This document shows positions 2,504 through 18,986 of a stretch of 64,000 bases of DNA, piece by piece (the first letter of the stretch is position 1; every line of letters starts with the position of its first letter). A program made the position numbers and the translations under genes. This DNA is from Luteolibacter sp. SL250 (lineage in GTDB: Bacteria; Verrucomicrobiota; Verrucomicrobiia; Verrucomicrobiales; Akkermansiaceae). The notes below the pieces were generated by a model. The model did not search any database. It was not told the DNA's origin and was given only the letters and a program-made list of their open reading frames with translations. The stretch covers positions 1,612,001 through 1,676,000 of the forward strand of contig NZ_CP113054.1 of assembly GCF_026625605.1 (NCBI RefSeq). Direction: 5' to 3'.

Positions 2504-3373
2504 TTACCTCACCACCTCGGTGCCGATGCCGCCGTCGGTGAAGATCTCGAGCAGCAGGGAGTGCGGCTGGCGGCCATCCACGAAGTGGACCTTGCGCACG
2601 CCCGCGTTGAGGGCGTCCACCGCGCTGCGGATCTTCGGGATCATGCCGCCGGAGATGGTTCCATCCGCGATCAGGCCGTCGGCCTCCTTGCGGGTCACGG
2701 ACTTGATCAGGGAGGTGGGATCCTTCGGGTCGGCCAGCAGTCCGGGGACGTCGGAGAGATAAACCAGTTTCGCGACGCGCAGTTCCTTCGCCAGCGCGGC
2801 GGCGGCGAGATCCGCGTTGATGTTGAGGGGGCGTCCGGTGCCCAGCTCCGCGGCCAGAGGTGAGATCACGGGAACGATGCCCGCGTCATGCGCGGCGTCC
2901 ATGTTGGCGAGCTGGCAGCCGATGACTTCGCCCACCCGGCCCAGATCGACGGAGTTCCCCTCCGCATCCTTGCCTCGGAGTTTTTCGCCGAGGAAGACGT
3001 TGTTTCCCGCGATGCCGACCGCCTTGCCGCCGAAGTCGCGCATCATGCGGACGAGGCCTGGGTTGATCTCCTCGGAAAGCACGCGGGCGACGATGTCGAT
3101 CGCTTCGTCCGTCGTGACGCGGAAGCCGCCGACGAATTTCGCCTCCAGCCCGGCCTTCTCCATCGCGGCGGAGATCGCCTTTCCGCCGCCGTGGACGACG
3201 ATGGGGTTGATGCCGGCCACTTCGAGGAAGACGATGTCCCGCATCACGTTCTTCACCAGTTCCGGGTCCTCCATCGCGGAGCCTCCCATCTTGATGAGGA
3301 AGGTCTTGCCGCGGAAGGCCTGGAGGTAGGGAAGCGCCTCGATGAGGGCGTCTGCTTTGTCGATGGGGTTCAT
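2504..3373 (-). CDS. argB: Acetylglutamate kinase
   Basis: ArgB phosphorylates N-acetyl-L-glutamate with ATP, the second step of arginine biosynthesis, in the cytoplasm. The 289-residue protein shows the amino-acid-kinase fold landmarks: FLIKMGG (Lys about 28), IVVHGGGK (about 58-65), FVGGFRVT, the substrate segment LNINADLAAAALA, and YLSDVPGLL. The frame is open much further upstream, but the start was set at MNPIDKAD. That ATG lies 5 bases after the stop of the upstream membrane-protein gene and matches the normal ArgB N-terminus. The N-terminal helix ahead of the kinase core resembles that of arginine-sensitive enzymes, so feedback inhibition by arginine is possible. No other arg genes are nearby. 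Confidence 0.95.
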   Translation of the reverse strand: MNPIDKADALIEALPYLQAFRGKTFLIKMGGSAMEDPELVKNVMRDIVFLEVAGINPIVVHGGGKAISAAMEKAGLEAKFVGGFRVTTDEAIDIVARVLSEEINPGLVRMMRDFGGKAVGIAGNNVFLGEKLRGKDAEGNSVDLGRVGEVIGCQLANMDAAHDAGIVPVISPLAAELGTGRPLNINADLAAAALAKELRVAKLVYLSDVPGLLADPKDPTSLIKSVTRKEADGLIADGTISGGMIPKIRSAVDALNAGVRKVHFVDGRQPHSLLLEIFTDGGIGTEVVR

Positions 3374-3378
3374 GATGG

Positions 3379-4905
3379 CTAGGATGATGGAGGATTTTTC
3401 TTTCTGCCGGCGGACTTCTTCGCGGCGGCTTTTTTGGCGGGGGTTTTCTTCGCCACCACCTTCTTCGTGGCGGCTTTTTTGGCGGTGGTCTTTTTGACGG
3501 TGGCCTTCCTGGCCGCCACTTTTTTCGCTGCGGCTTCTTTGGCGGGTGGGGTGGTCGGTTCCGCCACGGCCGCGGCGGCGGGAGCCACCACTTCCGCAGG
3601 TGCGGTGTCTGCCGGTAATGAGGGGGCGGGTTGCTCCTCCGGAGCCTTCTCCGTGTCCCGGAAGAACAGATGACTGACAAAGAACGCACCACCCACGGCT
3701 GCGAGAACGGCGAGGGTCGGCGGCCACACGGAGGTGGTGAGGAAGGCGGTGAGATGGATGGCAAGCGCGGCTGCGGCCACCACGGCATAGATGACTCCGC
3801 GGCCGAACCTGCGGCGGCGGAATGGCATCGCCAGCAGCACCGCGGCGATTCCCAGGATGGTCAGCTCCCGCCAATCCTCGGACCGCGTCAGGATTTGCTC
3901 CCGGGACATCCCGGCACCGGAAGAAATGTCGGCCAACAACGGGCCCACCCGTGCGGAAAATGCCCTCGTCGGAGCCTCCGCGTTGGACTGGTCATCGCGT
4001 AGCATCACCAGCCCCGGTCCCGCGAGCGGAGTCCCTTCCTGCATGTCCCCCAGCAGTTCTGCCCGGAGCATCCGGGAGTCGGTGGCCTTTCCGGGTGCCG
4101 TGGAAATCCGGCCCGTCGCATCGATGGGAATATAGGGACCCTTGGCACCGAGTTTGATGAAGTTCCCCAGCTCGATCTCCACTCCATCAAAGGGAAGGCC
4201 CCGCTCCACCAGAACCGAGACGAGCGGGAAGGAAAGGACGAAGCGGTCATCCCAGCGGGCCAGCATCGGTGATCCGCCCGGGTCGTGCTCCAGCAGGGTG
4301 AAGCCGGAATACGCGTTGTCACCGCCGAGGATGACCCCTGGAAGCGGCAGCCGGTTGACGGTGGGGACTTTCGTGATGTCTCCACGCACCTGGGAGGGGG
4401 CGATGGATGCGCGGCGGAAAGTGGGGGAGATCGGAGTGCCGGTCGCACCGCGGGACAACGGGCTGGCGGTCGTCACCGCAGGGAAGGATTCAAGCGCACT
4501 GTCGAGCGCGCTGATCGCGATCACCTCCGGTTCCTCCCACGCGAGCAGGGCGGAGATGGCGGGCCTTTCCGCTCCCAGCCGCCGCATGTTCCTCAGCACC
4601 ACCGCGAGGTCCACGGGAGACGGTGGGGAGCTCTGGAAGATGCCCTCTTTGTCATCCCCCAATGATACGACGGCAGGCCCGTGCTTCGGGTCCGCTTTCT
4701 GGTAAGGGGCCAGCACCCGCAGCGACCACGGGGAATCCTGCGTGCCCGCCCCGGCGATGATGAACGGGGGATTCGCCGTGGTGGACGCCATCACCTTCAC
4801 CAGGAAACGGTCCACCGGACCGGATGGAAGGAACTCCAGCGCATACCAAGCGGCCGCCGCGGAGGCGATCAGCACGCTGAGGAAGCGGAGGCACGGTTTG
4901 GCCAC
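3379..4905 (-). CDS. Membrane protein with CHASE2-like extracytoplasmic region and histone-H1-like Lys/Ala tail
   Basis: The protein has 508 residues. It has an N-terminal membrane segment (about 7-25), a roughly 320-residue region that resembles CHASE2-type extracellular sensory domains (e.g. AVVSLGDDKEG, followed by a repeated ISALDSALE-type helix), and two or three more hydrophobic segments at about 345-415. It then ends in a low-complexity tail (about 430-508). The tail has an acidic/Pro part and then repeats such as AAKKVAARKATVKKTTAKK, like the C-terminal domain of histone H1 or bacterial H1-like proteins. With four membrane passes the tail would be cytoplasmic and could touch DNA or RNA. 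It lies just upstream of argB on the same strand (5-base gap). The function is unknown and the CHASE2 resemblance is tentative. Confidence 0.7.
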   Translation of the reverse strand: MAKPCLRFLSVLIASAAAAWYALEFLPSGPVDRFLVKVMASTTANPPFIIAGAGTQDSPWSLRVLAPYQKADPKHGPAVVSLGDDKEGIFQSSPPSPVDLAVVLRNMRRLGAERPAISALLAWEEPEVIAISALDSALESFPAVTTASPLSRGATGTPISPTFRRASIAPSQVRGDITKVPTVNRLPLPGVILGGDNAYSGFTLLEHDPGGSPMLARWDDRFVLSFPLVSVLVERGLPFDGVEIELGNFIKLGAKGPYIPIDATGRISTAPGKATDSRMLRAELLGDMQEGTPLAGPGLVMLRDDQSNAEAPTRAFSARVGPLLADISSGAGMSREQILTRSEDWRELTILGIAAVLLAMPFRRRRFGRGVIYAVVAAAALAIHLTAFLTTSVWPPTLAVLAAVGGAFFVSHLFFRDTEKAPEEQPAPSLPADTAPAEVVAPAAAAVAEPTTPPAKEAAAKKVAARKATVKKTTAKKAATKKVVAKKTPAKKAAAKKSAGRKKNPPSS

Positions 4906-4912
4906 GGAGGGA

Positions 4913-5863
4913 TCAGGGGATGGCCGCCAGGTAAGGGGCGAGCGGTTTTTCGAGGTCGGTGCCCGCGGTCACTTCGCGGAGGAGCTTCGCCGCCGTGGCG
5001 ATGTGCGGGCGATACCATTCATCGCCACGGTTTTTCAGGATGTTGCCGTAGGCACCCAGGGCCTGCATCAGCCGCTGGGCGGCGCATTGGTGGAACAGCG
5101 TGGTTTCCGGACGCTCGTCCGCGATATCCTCCCACAGTTCCAGAAGTTGCTCCCGCTCATCGGCGGAGTGGTCCAGATAGGGGTCGAAAATGAGGGATGC
5201 GAGGTCATACTCCTGGCGGCCGCGGCGCAGTCCCTGGAAGTCGATGAGATACACCGCCCCCTCCTTGATCAGGAGATTCTGCGACTGGAAATCACGGTGG
5301 ACCAGATGGCGCGCCCCCGTACCCAGCTTCTCGGCCAGCGCGGCGAAGGCAGGGTGCCCCTTCAGCGGGGTGGCGTCCATGCCGAGGAAGTCCTCCACCA
5401 GATGCTCGATGAAATAGTTCTGCTCCCACCGGTAGAGCGCGGCGTCGAACGGTGGCATCAGCTCGAACTCCTTCGGCGGCTTCGCGTAGAACAGCTTGTC
5501 CACCTGTTCCAGAGCGGAGCGGTAGAACGGCGGGCGTTCGGAAAACGGGCGGTCCTTGAGCGAAAGCAGGTCCACGTCCCCCAGGTCCTCCACCAGCGCC
5601 ACCCGGCGTTTCAGGTTCTCATGCAGGATCTCCGGCACCCGCAGCCGGGCTTTTTTCAGGAAATGCGCCACTGGCACGAACTGCTTGTTGTCCGCCCGCT
5701 CGTCCGTCCAGTGGATGCCGATGAACGGTTCATGCACCGGTGACTTGATACGGACGATGGTCCGGCCGGACGCGCCGCGCTTGATCGGCTCCAATGTCAC
5801 GGGGATGGTCGGGTCCACCTCGAGGAACTGTCGGGCGGTGGAGAGGATCGCGTCGGTCGGCAT
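4913..5863 (-). CDS. APH-fold phosphotransferase, AmgK-like
   Basis: The 316-residue cytoplasmic protein belongs to the aminoglycoside phosphotransferase/choline kinase fold. The catalytic loop is LVHRDFQSQNLLI (Brenner motif) and the metal-binding loop is LIDFQGLRRGRQEYDLASLI. The pair most resembles AmgK, the anomeric sugar kinase for N-acetylmuramate and N-acetylglucosamine in peptidoglycan recycling. A role in antibiotic resistance is therefore less likely than sugar phosphorylation. The frame extends to 5977, but MPTDAILSTARQF at 5863 gives the normal family N-terminus. The stop codon lies 7 bases before the start of the downstream membrane-protein gene, so the two are probably cotranscribed. 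No MurU-type nucleotidyltransferase is adjacent, so AmgK function is only suggested. Confidence 0.8.
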   Translation of the reverse strand: MPTDAILSTARQFLEVDPTIPVTLEPIKRGASGRTIVRIKSPVHEPFIGIHWTDERADNKQFVPVAHFLKKARLRVPEILHENLKRRVALVEDLGDVDLLSLKDRPFSERPPFYRSALEQVDKLFYAKPPKEFELMPPFDAALYRWEQNYFIEHLVEDFLGMDATPLKGHPAFAALAEKLGTGARHLVHRDFQSQNLLIKEGAVYLIDFQGLRRGRQEYDLASLIFDPYLDHSADEREQLLELWEDIADERPETTLFHQCAAQRLMQALGAYGNILKNRGDEWYRPHIATAAKLLREVTAGTDLEKPLAPYLAAIP

Positions 5864-5922
5864 GGGCGGGGGGAGTCTAGGCCGGAAAAAGCCCGCCGTG
5901 ACAAGGGAAATGCGGACCCCGC

Positions 5923-16044: not shown

Positions 16045-16250
16045 AGGGTCTGGTGTCTTCCCTGCCGATGACCTGATGCGGGGTGCATGGAATCCGGTGA
16101 GAGCCCGGAACAGTCGCGCTGCGGTATCCGATGGACGAATTCCCACACAGCCAATCTCCGCGCGAGCGGGGGTGAAGGCGGGAAGGAGGCGGGGAGGGCG
16201 GGAGAGATTCCGTTCCCCCACAGTCGGGAGTCCGAATACTTCACCCCGTT
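16045..16250 (+). promoter_or_regulatory. Cobalamin (B12/adenosylcobalamin) riboswitch
   Basis: The conserved core is readable: GGAATCCGGTGAGAGCCCGG (from 16089) followed by AACAGTCGCGCTGCGGTA. This matches the GGGAA-x-GGTG-x-A-x-CC-x-CTGTCGCGC-x-CGGT pattern of cobalamin aptamers, including the B12-box region. The 3' signature GGGAGTCCGAATACTT (from about 16226) corresponds to the conserved GAGTCxGAATACC segment that closes the aptamer. The spacing, with a variable GC-rich arm in between, is normal. Downstream are a BtuB-like receptor and two exported proteins, as expected for a B12-repressed operon. The outer boundaries are approximate. Confidence 0.85.
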
Positions 16251-16398: not shown

Positions 16399-16989
16399 AT
16401 GAAAATCAACATCGTCAGGGTGTTCGCCGTTGCGTGTACCCTGCTCTCCGCCAGCTTTGCCGGGGCCGCCAACATCATCCTCGGGTCCGGCACGGACGTT
16501 TCCTACCTCGTGCTGGAATCCCCGAACATCGGGAGCCGCACCTACGAAATTTACTACACCTACAGTAGCGGATCTCCGTTGGACACCTGGGGTCTGCTCC
16601 AGATCATCGACTCCGCGGAGAGCGATCTTTCCATCAGCGCGGACAACTACGGCACGGTCGGGGAGCCGAACTATTTCATCTCCGCCATCACCTGGATGGG
16701 GGTGACGGAAACGAACGCCGGGGCCCCTGACTACGCGCCGTATTGGGTGCAGTCCGTGGCGGGTGGACTGGCCGGATATCCGACGGGTGTCCCTGTTGCG
16801 GATGGTTCATGGTCGGAAGGCAGCGGTGTCTCCGCTCCTTTCCGGGTGGTCGCACCGGGTTCCTGGGACGGTCTGGTGTATGGTGCGTATGGGACCGTTC
16901 CCAGCGTGAATCCCGTGCCGGAGCCCGTTGCATCCGTGATGGTGTTGATGGGCGGCGCACTGGTCTGGCGCCGCCGCAGGGCGCGCTGA
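16399..16989 (+). CDS. PEP-CTERM surface protein of the cobalamin operon
   Basis: The 196-residue exported protein has a signal peptide (MKINIVRVFAVACTLLSASF, cleavage near AGA). A beta-rich middle part contains YEIYYTYSSGSPLDTWGLLQ and later APYWVQSVAGG. It ends in a PEP-CTERM sorting signal: VPEPVASVMVLMGGALVW followed by the basic RRRRAR. The signal is read by an exosortase that is not in this window. It is the first gene after a B12 riboswitch, and 20 bases separate it from the TonB receptor. The context strongly suggests a role in binding or delivering corrinoids at the cell surface, but that is inference. The ATG at 16399 was chosen because it starts a proper signal peptide. Confidence 0.85.
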   Translation: MKINIVRVFAVACTLLSASFAGAANIILGSGTDVSYLVLESPNIGSRTYEIYYTYSSGSPLDTWGLLQIIDSAESDLSISADNYGTVGEPNYFISAITWMGVTETNAGAPDYAPYWVQSVAGGLAGYPTGVPVADGSWSEGSGVSAPFRVVAPGSWDGLVYGAYGTVPSVNPVPEPVASVMVLMGGALVWRRRRAR

Positions 16990-17009
16990 GCCCAAACCAA
17001 CCATTTGCG

Positions 17010-18986
17010 ATGGCGGGATCTTCCAGCCTCGCCGTATTTTCGGCGCTCCTGCTCGCCGTGGCTTCCGCCACGGGCGAGGAAGTGATGCCTGAAATCGTGG
17101 TGGAAGCATGGCGGGGGGCTGTGCTTCCACCACACTTCGCGGGAAACGCGACCGTCATCGATGAGGAGGAAATCACCTCCTCCGGTGTCCGCTCCGTGGC
17201 GGAATTGTTGGCGGTGAAGGGCGGCGTGCGGTTGACCAGCACCTCCGGAAATGCTGCGGCGGGTGCGCTGCACCTCCGGGGGTTCGGGGAAAATTCCTCT
17301 TCCCGTGTGCTGGTGATGGTGGATGGGCGTCCGGTGAACCGCCCGGACATGGCGGCGGTGTCCCTGCTGGAGGTGCCCCTTTCCCGGATCGTCCGGGTGG
17401 AGATCCTGCGGGGTGCGCAGACCGCCCGTTTCGGAGACAATGCGGCGGCGGGGGTTATCAATCTCGTCACCCGCACCCCTTCGGGAAACGGGAGCGGTTA
17501 TCTCGAAGCCGCCGGGGGCAGTGACGGACTCGCCATCCAGCGCCTGGGTTACGGTGTCCGGTACGGCGCGGACGGCATCCGCGTCGATCTGGAAAGGAAC
17601 TTTTCAGACGGCTGGCGGGACAACGCGATGAGCGAGATGGAGTCCGCCCATTTTCGTTGGGACCGGCGGCTCGGCCACGGATGGGAGGTGGATGCGGGCA
17701 TGGGCTGGTCGGATGAACTCACCGGCTTTCCCGGACCATTGTCAGAGGCGAGGTACCGGGACGATCCCCGGCAGTCGATCTACGTGCAGGCCGGACAAGA
17801 GGATCAGTATTTTTCGGAACAGGAGCAATGGAAGGCAGATGTCACCCTGGGCTGGAAGGGCGGCCAGGGGATGGGCGTGGACCTGCCGCTGGCGTGGTCC
17901 CGCCGGGACCAGGCATGGAACTTCGGCCCCGGATCCCACACGGACAACCTGCTGGATTCCGTCACCTTCCGCCCGGAATGGAGCTGGCGGACCGCTGGGC
18001 TGGATGTCCGGACCGGGCTGAACATCCGGCATGACTCGCTCGATCTCACCCAATACCGGGAGATCCAGCGGCAGAGGAAAACCGCGGTCGCGGACCTCGA
18101 ACGCATGGTCTATGGGGTATCCACCGCGGTGGACTGGGAACCATGGCAAGGGTGGCACCTCGGCTTTGCCGGCAGGCTGGAAGGCTCCCGGGTGGACGCC
18201 CGTGCGGAGAGCATCCGCTTTCCGTGGGACCCGGATTTGAATTTCGACAGGGGCGGTAGTGAACTGAACCATGCGCTGCAGCTCGGCCTCCGCTGGGAGG
18301 GGGATTCCGCGGATGGATGGTTGCGCTATGACCGGCTCTACCGTCTGCCTTCCACGGATGAGATCGCCTCCTACCAGGGCTTTCCCATGTCGGAGCCTTT
18401 CAATGACCGCCTGGAGGCGGAAACCGGCCACCAGGTCGAGCTGGGCGGCGAATGGCGGCGGGACGGCTGGAGGTGCCGGTTGAATGGATTCGTCCAGTGG
18501 CTCGATGGTGAGATCGCCTATGACTACCTCCGGAATTTGAACGTGAACCTCGAGGAAACCCGCCGCTACGGGGTGGAGACGGAGCTGGGCTGGAACTCCG
18601 CCCGTTGGGATCTTCTGTTCCGCCACACCTGGCTGGATGCCCGGCAGCGATCCGGCGAATATTCCGGAAAGGAAATCTACCTTGTTCCGCAGCATGAGTT
18701 CTCCGCCGTGGCCGGTTGGCGTCCCATGGAGCGTTGGCTGGTACAGGCGGAATACCAATACACCGGCAGTTCCTTCGAGGGGAACGATCTGTCCAACAAC
18801 CAACCGAAGCTGCCCTCCCATGCCACTGCGAACCTCATGGTGCGCTGGGAGGGTCGTGACGGATGGTCCGTCTATGGGCGGGTGAACAACCTCGCCGATG
18901 AGCGGTATGCGACGGTGAAATACAATGGAGTCTGGTATCCTGCGGCGGGCCGGCAGTATCAGATCGGCATCCGGAAAGAGTTCTGA
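17010..18986 (+). CDS. TonB-dependent outer-membrane receptor, probable cobalamin transporter (BtuB-like)
   Basis: The 658-residue protein has a signal peptide (about 1-21) and a TonB-box-like stretch (EIVVEAWRG). The plug domain spans about 40-150 and contains VAELLAVKGGVRL, GALHLRGFGENSSSRVLVMV (with DGRPVNRP following) and GAQTARFGDNAAAGVINLVT. The 22-strand barrel ends in YQIGIRKEF with the C-terminal Phe needed for outer-membrane insertion. BtuB-type receptors move vitamin B12 across the outer membrane using TonB energy. The B12 riboswitch upstream supports that substrate. The frame is open upstream, but MAGSSSLAVF gives the signal peptide, 20 bases after the PEP-CTERM stop. No inner-membrane BtuCDF genes are in the window. 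Confidence 0.88.
   Translation: MAGSSSLAVFSALLLAVASATGEEVMPEIVVEAWRGAVLPPHFAGNATVIDEEEITSSGVRSVAELLAVKGGVRLTSTSGNAAAGALHLRGFGENSSSRVLVMVDGRPVNRPDMAAVSLLEVPLSRIVRVEILRGAQTARFGDNAAAGVINLVTRTPSGNGSGYLEAAGGSDGLAIQRLGYGVRYGADGIRVDLERNFSDGWRDNAMSEMESAHFRWDRRLGHGWEVDAGMGWSDELTGFPGPLSEARYRDDPRQSIYVQAGQEDQYFSEQEQWKADVTLGWKGGQGMGVDLPLAWSRRDQAWNFGPGSHTDNLLDSVTFRPEWSWRTAGLDVRTGLNIRHDSLDLTQYREIQRQRKTAVADLERMVYGVSTAVDWEPWQGWHLGFAGRLEGSRVDARAESIRFPWDPDLNFDRGGSELNHALQLGLRWEGDSADGWLRYDRLYRLPSTDEIASYQGFPMSEPFNDRLEAETGHQVELGGEWRRDGWRCRLNGFVQWLDGEIAYDYLRNLNVNLEETRRYGVETELGWNSARWDLLFRHTWLDARQRSGEYSGKEIYLVPQHEFSAVAGWRPMERWLVQAEYQYTGSSFEGNDLSNNQPKLPSHATANLMVRWEGRDGWSVYGRVNNLADERYATVKYNGVWYPAAGRQYQIGIRKEF

Follow-up and report, generated by a model that had tools for sequence, protein, structure and literature searches.

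Why should a multi-pass membrane protein end in a lysine- and alanine-rich tail of the histone H1 type? This question is raised by an open reading frame (ORF) of Luteolibacter sp. SL250, at positions 3379-4905 on the minus strand of a 64,000-nucleotide stretch of contig NZ_CP113054.1 (hereafter the window). The ORF has a GTG start and encodes 508 residues. An earlier note, made from the letters of the DNA, had proposed that the protein carries a large extracytoplasmic domain, possibly of CHASE2 type, and that its tail could tether the chromosome to the envelope or connect an outside signal with DNA. By profile comparison and structure modelling, the protein is an orphan CHASE2 relative without a catalytic output domain, and by comparison among its orthologues the tail is an unusual accessory, not a fixed part of the protein. 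What the tail does can be answered more tentatively; we favour a cytoplasmic arm that would bind a polyanion, most likely nucleic acid, on a conserved protein whose core job does not depend on it.

The membrane body and its relation to CHASE2

The AlphaFold2 model of the whole protein (mean predicted local distance difference test, pLDDT, 89.2; predicted template modelling score, pTM, 0.83) contains four membrane helices, at residues 4-25, 344-363, 366-390 and 397-414, which bears out the claim of a multi-pass membrane protein. The first transmembrane helix (TM1, residues 4-25, positions 4831-4896), seen in the model and by hydropathy, is followed by a large domain (residues 30-341, 3883-4818) and then by TM2-TM4 (residues 344-414, 3664-3876), with RRRRFGRG between TM2 and TM3 on what is predicted to be the cytoplasmic side; all of these lie on the minus strand. 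The order of one helix, a large domain and three helices is that of CHASE2 proteins.

The Pfam CHASE2 model (PF05226) does not find the window protein at E<=1, its gathering score of 26.3 bits is not reached, and it has no match in the window's own genome; in the class, 90 of the 141 sampled genomes have a CHASE2 match. Pfam scans covered ten homologues, of which L041 belongs to the genus (L numbers denote the collected loci) and the other nine come from outside the family but within the order. Two of the ten passed the cut-off (L031 with 33.4 bits and L040 with 27.6), four had matches below it (L033, L034, L035 and L039) and four had no CHASE2 match (L032, L036, L037 and L041). A sequence search with the window protein reaches L031 with an E of 3.6e-13. 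When 47 genus-level sequences were aligned by hhalign with 21 canonical CHASE2 proteins from the class, the probability was 97.5% (E 6.3e-12), rising to 99.5% (E 2.7e-23) after nine order-level homologues were added to the alignment, and the homology spans both the domain and the helices that follow it. The relationship suspected at the outset was thus upheld by profiles. Foldseek of the model against solved structures gave nothing at E<=0.001, and a second fold search (best VIA Z 4.3, with many subtilisin-like chains) gave no convincing likeness to a solved structure. A sequence search of the PDB with the window protein gave no match. Because profile homology is present while the Pfam cut-off is missed, the protein is, on this evidence, a strongly divergent CHASE2 relative and not a Pfam-certified member. 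After the helices no output domain was found by Pfam in the window protein, barring a sub-threshold HC2 match in the tail; the helices themselves have a weak match to DUF6320 (E 0.13). According to sequence and model, the tail occupies the position of the output domain in canonical CHASE2 proteins.

On which side of the membrane the tail lies was judged from the helices and their loops. TM2 is short and falls below a simple hydropathy threshold in the window protein; over its 15-residue core, however, every one of the 46 scored sequences is hydrophobic (Kyte-Doolittle mean 2.53, lowest 1.96). With four helices the N- and C-terminal ends share one side. Over 47 sequences, the mean number of lysines plus arginines is 1.19 for the N-terminus and 2.04 for the TM2-TM3 loop, against 0.06 for the TM3-TM4 loop. 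Helix count and loop charges together thus predict a cytoplasmic tail and a CHASE2 domain outside the inner membrane. Both placements agree with the earlier note, which had taken the domain to be extracytoplasmic and had made a cytoplasmic tail the condition for its proposals.

The tail and its relatives

The last 54 residues (455-508, positions 3382-3543, minus strand) hold 18 of the 28 lysines of the window protein, together with 2 arginines, 16 alanines and one acidic residue. No 54-residue window in any of 10000 shuffles of the protein reached this lysine density, so the cluster is not due to chance. The comparison with histone H1 and Hc2 is borne out in composition, the Pfam HC2 model (PF07382) scoring 28.1 bits over residues 439-503, yet this is under its gathering cut-off of 40. 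A tail of 80 residues, as first described, proved too long: the lysine/alanine part covers about 54, and residues 417-454 (3544-3657, minus strand) translate into a linker rich in proline, alanine and glutamate. The linker is near-neutral and the distal end basic. The DNA of the tail is tandemly repetitive, with periods of 15, 45 and 60 and a best score of 148. The codons of the tail have a guanine plus cytosine (GC) content of 0.46/0.56/0.69 at positions 1/2/3, those of the CHASE2 domain one of 0.66/0.52/0.79; in both it is highest at the third position, the pattern expected for coding sequence.

Tails were compared in 48 complete proteins including that of the window, which remained from 52 after four with the frame running off the contig (L062, L098, L100 and L107) were dropped. 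Eighteen are strongly basic, 20 have fewer than 30 residues past the last helix and 10 are of other kinds. With a tail so labile, a stable fusion of a histone domain, as the architecture had been described, was rejected. A frameshift or assembly error behind the missing tails was also considered and rejected, since inspection by eye of three frames over 300 bases past the stop (270 in L088) at 15 short-tailed loci, two of which are copies of one gene, brought up no hidden lysine-rich frame. The ending NPPPSQS is kept in L070 and L104, resembling the tailed L060, and tails may therefore also go by internal deletion.

Sequences of the same kind are found on other proteins of the genus. In the window's own genome, searches with the Hc2 model (E<=1) and with the tail as query (E<=10) led, apart from this gene, to Rho (identified by eye), which is rich in lysine and alanine near its N-terminus, and to a Pfam-confirmed BlaI/MecI-type repressor whose tail is of PAKKA type. 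A census of the genus, covering 41 genomes and with an initial search step that may miss weak places, yielded 28 Hc2-like places, spread over 19 of the genomes; three belong to the CHASE2-type family. Of the other 25, BlaI-type repressors account for eight, in 7 genes, and Rho for 5, each of the 12 genes being confirmed by Pfam; thus 13 of the 25 are in nucleic-acid binders. Four more are in a small protein starting MGQQSNKIIKRRRR, and three in a short protein without Pfam match that we take to resemble DUF2934.

Some of these proteins merit mention in their own right. The fusion of a BlaI-type repressor with an Hc2-like tail is recurrent in the genus (7 genes), and the BlaI/MecI-type (Penicillinase_R) repressor at L053 (1396-2178, minus strand; in the window's own genome C1, ~1725260-1725760) has a PAKKA-repeat, Hc2-like tail of ~140 residues. 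Another short protein, which starts MGQQSNKIIKRRRRADYLKRKKE and is uncharacterised, has a tail rich in lysine and alanine; it recurs in the genus (L173, L175, L181 and L184) and matches HC2 alone in Pfam. Among ORFs other than the CHASE2-type family at the collected loci, five have a basic C-terminal stretch, and two of these five that were scanned are of RNase R/II type. Exoribonucleases of this type with lysine/arginine-rich tails lie a few kilobases (kb) from argB at L066 (10299-12794) and L091 (8808-11204).

What the tail may do

The reading that we favour, with some hesitation, is that of a disordered, repeat-expanded arm in which a near-neutral linker would carry a basic distal end. Such an arm would bind a cytoplasmic polyanion through its charge, DNA or RNA being the most likely partner, and the bound nucleic acid would be held near the membrane. 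Nucleic acid is favoured by the company of such sequences in the genus, 13 of the 25 Hc2-like places outside the family being in nucleic-acid binders. The tail would be accessory: the core job of the protein, which orthologues retain whether or not they have the tail and which gene order ties to an AmgK-like kinase, would not depend on it. That the CHASE2 domain reads the state of the envelope, and the fast-evolving basic arm tunes the hold on chromosome or RNA at the inner membrane, is a bolder version that we regard as distinctly improbable.

The strongest rival is that slippage in repeats of the GCC-AAG type has left the tail as a nearly neutral by-product, its charge being tolerated, with no specific role, after a last helix that ends on the cytoplasmic side. 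We think this unlikely, though it deserves serious consideration, as it would account for the tandem repeats in coding DNA and for some of the observations that weigh against a binding arm. The tail is labile, with 20 of the 48 complete proteins almost tailless and one tail acidic at a net charge of -10; lack of conservation in orthologues, which the earlier note had named as telling against its idea, was to this extent half borne out. Length differs even among relatives ~85% identical (20 residues in L006, 52 in L076 and 64 in L007). Genus g18 of the family was sampled with four tails, of which that of L141 is basic and the other three, L138-L140, including a nearly identical pair, have a net negative charge. 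Inheritance was followed on a tree of 76 distinct proteins out of 121 collected, from which duplicates, open frames and cores under 250 residues had been removed; L146, with its frame open at the 3′ end, was retained, the long tail of L030 was entered as 0, and most weak order-level homologues were left out, among them L035 and L039, which also have basic ends. The strongly basic state required 20 changes against a shuffle mean of 21.9, with 61 of 300 shuffles as low, and it is therefore hardly inherited. The ratio of nonsynonymous to synonymous substitution rates (dN/dS), computable in nine of 11 pairs (the pairs share sequences, and two of the nine have acidic tails), is 0.17-0.61 in the tail and 0.06-0.27 in the domain, and the tail exceeds the domain in seven of the nine. 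Judged by these ratios, tails are constrained, but more loosely than the domain. Lastly, among the 25 Hc2-like places outside the family, 7 are in short proteins to which no function is assigned, 1 is unidentified and 4 are unresolved.

A by-product fits less well with the direction in which tails vary. Among the 46 of the 76 proteins with long tails (at least 30 residues), the net charge of the last 40 residues is +3 or more in 36, -3 or less in four and in between in six; in 38 the positive charge is greater in the distal than in the proximal half. Basic ends are also far commoner in the family than in other ORFs at the collected loci (18/60 vs 5/531, the background having been called by length alone and including false ORFs). 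The presence of any tail of at least 30 residues is clustered on the tree (17 changes vs a shuffle mean of 23.7; none of 300 shuffles as low). A laxer basic state took 19 changes vs 25.1, with 2 of 300 as low. In one pair, L013 and L019, the final 25 residues, a basic stretch, are identical despite a drifting linker.

Other partners and purposes can be imagined for the charge. It is rather unlikely that the tail binds a polyanion other than nucleic acid, such as the acidic phospholipids of its own membrane or polyphosphate. KPAA-rich AlgP is reported to associate with polyphosphate granules (PMC9239181), and a C-terminal region of TubY to be able to bind membranes as well as DNA (PMC7762940), but a near-neutral linker followed by distal charge would better suit a partner off the membrane surface, and the other Hc2-like carriers of the genus with a recognised domain are soluble nucleic-acid proteins. 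Recruitment of ribosomes or messenger RNA to the membrane, or the holding of an RNA-degrading complex, seems to us highly unlikely. The basic tails of the Oxa1/YidC/Alb3 insertases offer a parallel for ribosome recruitment, and a link between Alb3 and ribosomes is reported (PMC8733628). One can also point to a beta-CASP/RMMBL ribonuclease, which is the next gene at 4 of the 10 loci of order level (L032, L033, L039 and L040; L038 ends inside the gene and is uninformative here). However, no such ribonuclease adjoins the gene in the window, and of the four ribonuclease-flanked proteins L039 alone has a clearly basic end. That the charge merely fixes the last helix with its C-terminus inside, by the positive-inside rule, we consider very remote: the even helix count and the positive TM2-TM3 loop are compatible with it, whereas the charge is mostly distal, tens of residues past the helix, and orthologues lacking tail charge align over the same helices.

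Returning to the nucleic-acid-binding arm, orthologues with and without the basic tail form a natural series, which makes the tethering of nucleic acid by a polybasic arm of a sensor-type membrane protein directly testable.

Gene neighbourhood and comparison with known systems

Of 37 genomes of the genus, 36 have the family, that of the window among them, and the one that lacks it is 57% complete; in the same survey it was found in 46 of all 59 genomes. In the Akkermansiaceae-level family it occurs in 105 of 117 genomes, in one place each. The ORF starts 7 bases past the end of the upstream gene, an AmgK-like kinase of APH fold (4913-5863, minus strand, with an estimated ATG start at 5863), and ends 5 bases ahead of the start of argB, encoding acetylglutamate kinase (2504-3373, minus strand; TIGR00761 206.1 bits, cut-off 151.3). 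Scanned as 4913-5875, the upstream kinase scores 47.4 bits with Pfam APH and 58.3 with NCBIfam AmgK, far below the cut-off of 550 for the latter. This kinase is the immediate upstream neighbour in 37 of the 49 genus-level loci that could be judged and in 17 of 20 loci of other genera, and argB lies close downstream in 28 of 42 and 9 of 19, respectively. Most of the 12 genus-level loci without an adjoining kinase belong to one clade, in which L044 and L049 have a thymidylate-kinase-like gene (identified by eye) in its place. The kinase is much better conserved than its CHASE2-type neighbour (69-82% vs 32-50% identity to the window, L057-L107).

Of the 10 order-level loci, two have the kinase no more than 1 kb away, and in five more (L031, L032, L033, L037 and L038) it is one gene further off. 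The gene in between is GlgE-like by Pfam in L032, L033 and L038 and below the cut-off in L031. In L031, L033 and L038 the kinase also has a nucleotidyltransferase gene (Pfam) on its upstream side. This company suggests that it is an anomeric sugar kinase, with a place in the recycling of a glycan or of the cell wall. The CHASE2-type gene is near-universal and single-copy in the Akkermansiaceae, with a recurrent neighbourhood, and in the window's genome the Pfam CHASE2 model misses it. Elsewhere in the window, a cobalamin riboswitch (16089-16239, plus strand; Rfam 51.6 bits) is followed by an ORF with a PEP-CTERM-like end and by a TonB-dependent-receptor-like ORF (16743-18986), both recognised by eye.

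In its body the window protein resembles CHASE2 (PF05226) receptors such as the CHASE2-cyclases, which have the same helix, large domain, three helices and C-terminal part; in the receptors that part is an output domain, whereas here it is a basic tail, in a protein that the Pfam model does not recognise. The tail shares lysine/alanine repeats with Hc2 and histone H1-like proteins (PF07382) and with AlgP, its HC2 score falling below the family cut-off (28.1 vs 40). Hc2, the H1-like proteins and AlgP are not known to be membrane proteins. The BlaI-type repressor and Rho of the same genome likewise have low-complexity basic sequence attached to another domain, C-terminal in BlaI and near the N-terminus in Rho, but they are soluble DNA- and RNA-binding proteins, unlike the membrane protein of the window. 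Hc2, too, is reported to vary in length by lysine-rich repeat units (PMC2848022).

Among the titles and abstracts listed in the literature searched, none describes a CHASE2 protein with a lysine-rich tail; the component parts are of known kinds, but neither their combination nor the orphan family appears there. The view that the architecture is non-standard holds in that it is rare, but it is not without parallel. Rv3852 of Mycobacterium, a membrane-anchored nucleoid-associated protein that is reportedly bound to DNA while tethered to the membrane, combines KAAK/PAAK repeats and a membrane helix in one polypeptide (PMC8233713), and the window protein would do likewise, judging by its sequence and model. 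Rv3852 has a single, C-terminal membrane helix and no CHASE2 domain, and the likeness between the two would be one of working mode.
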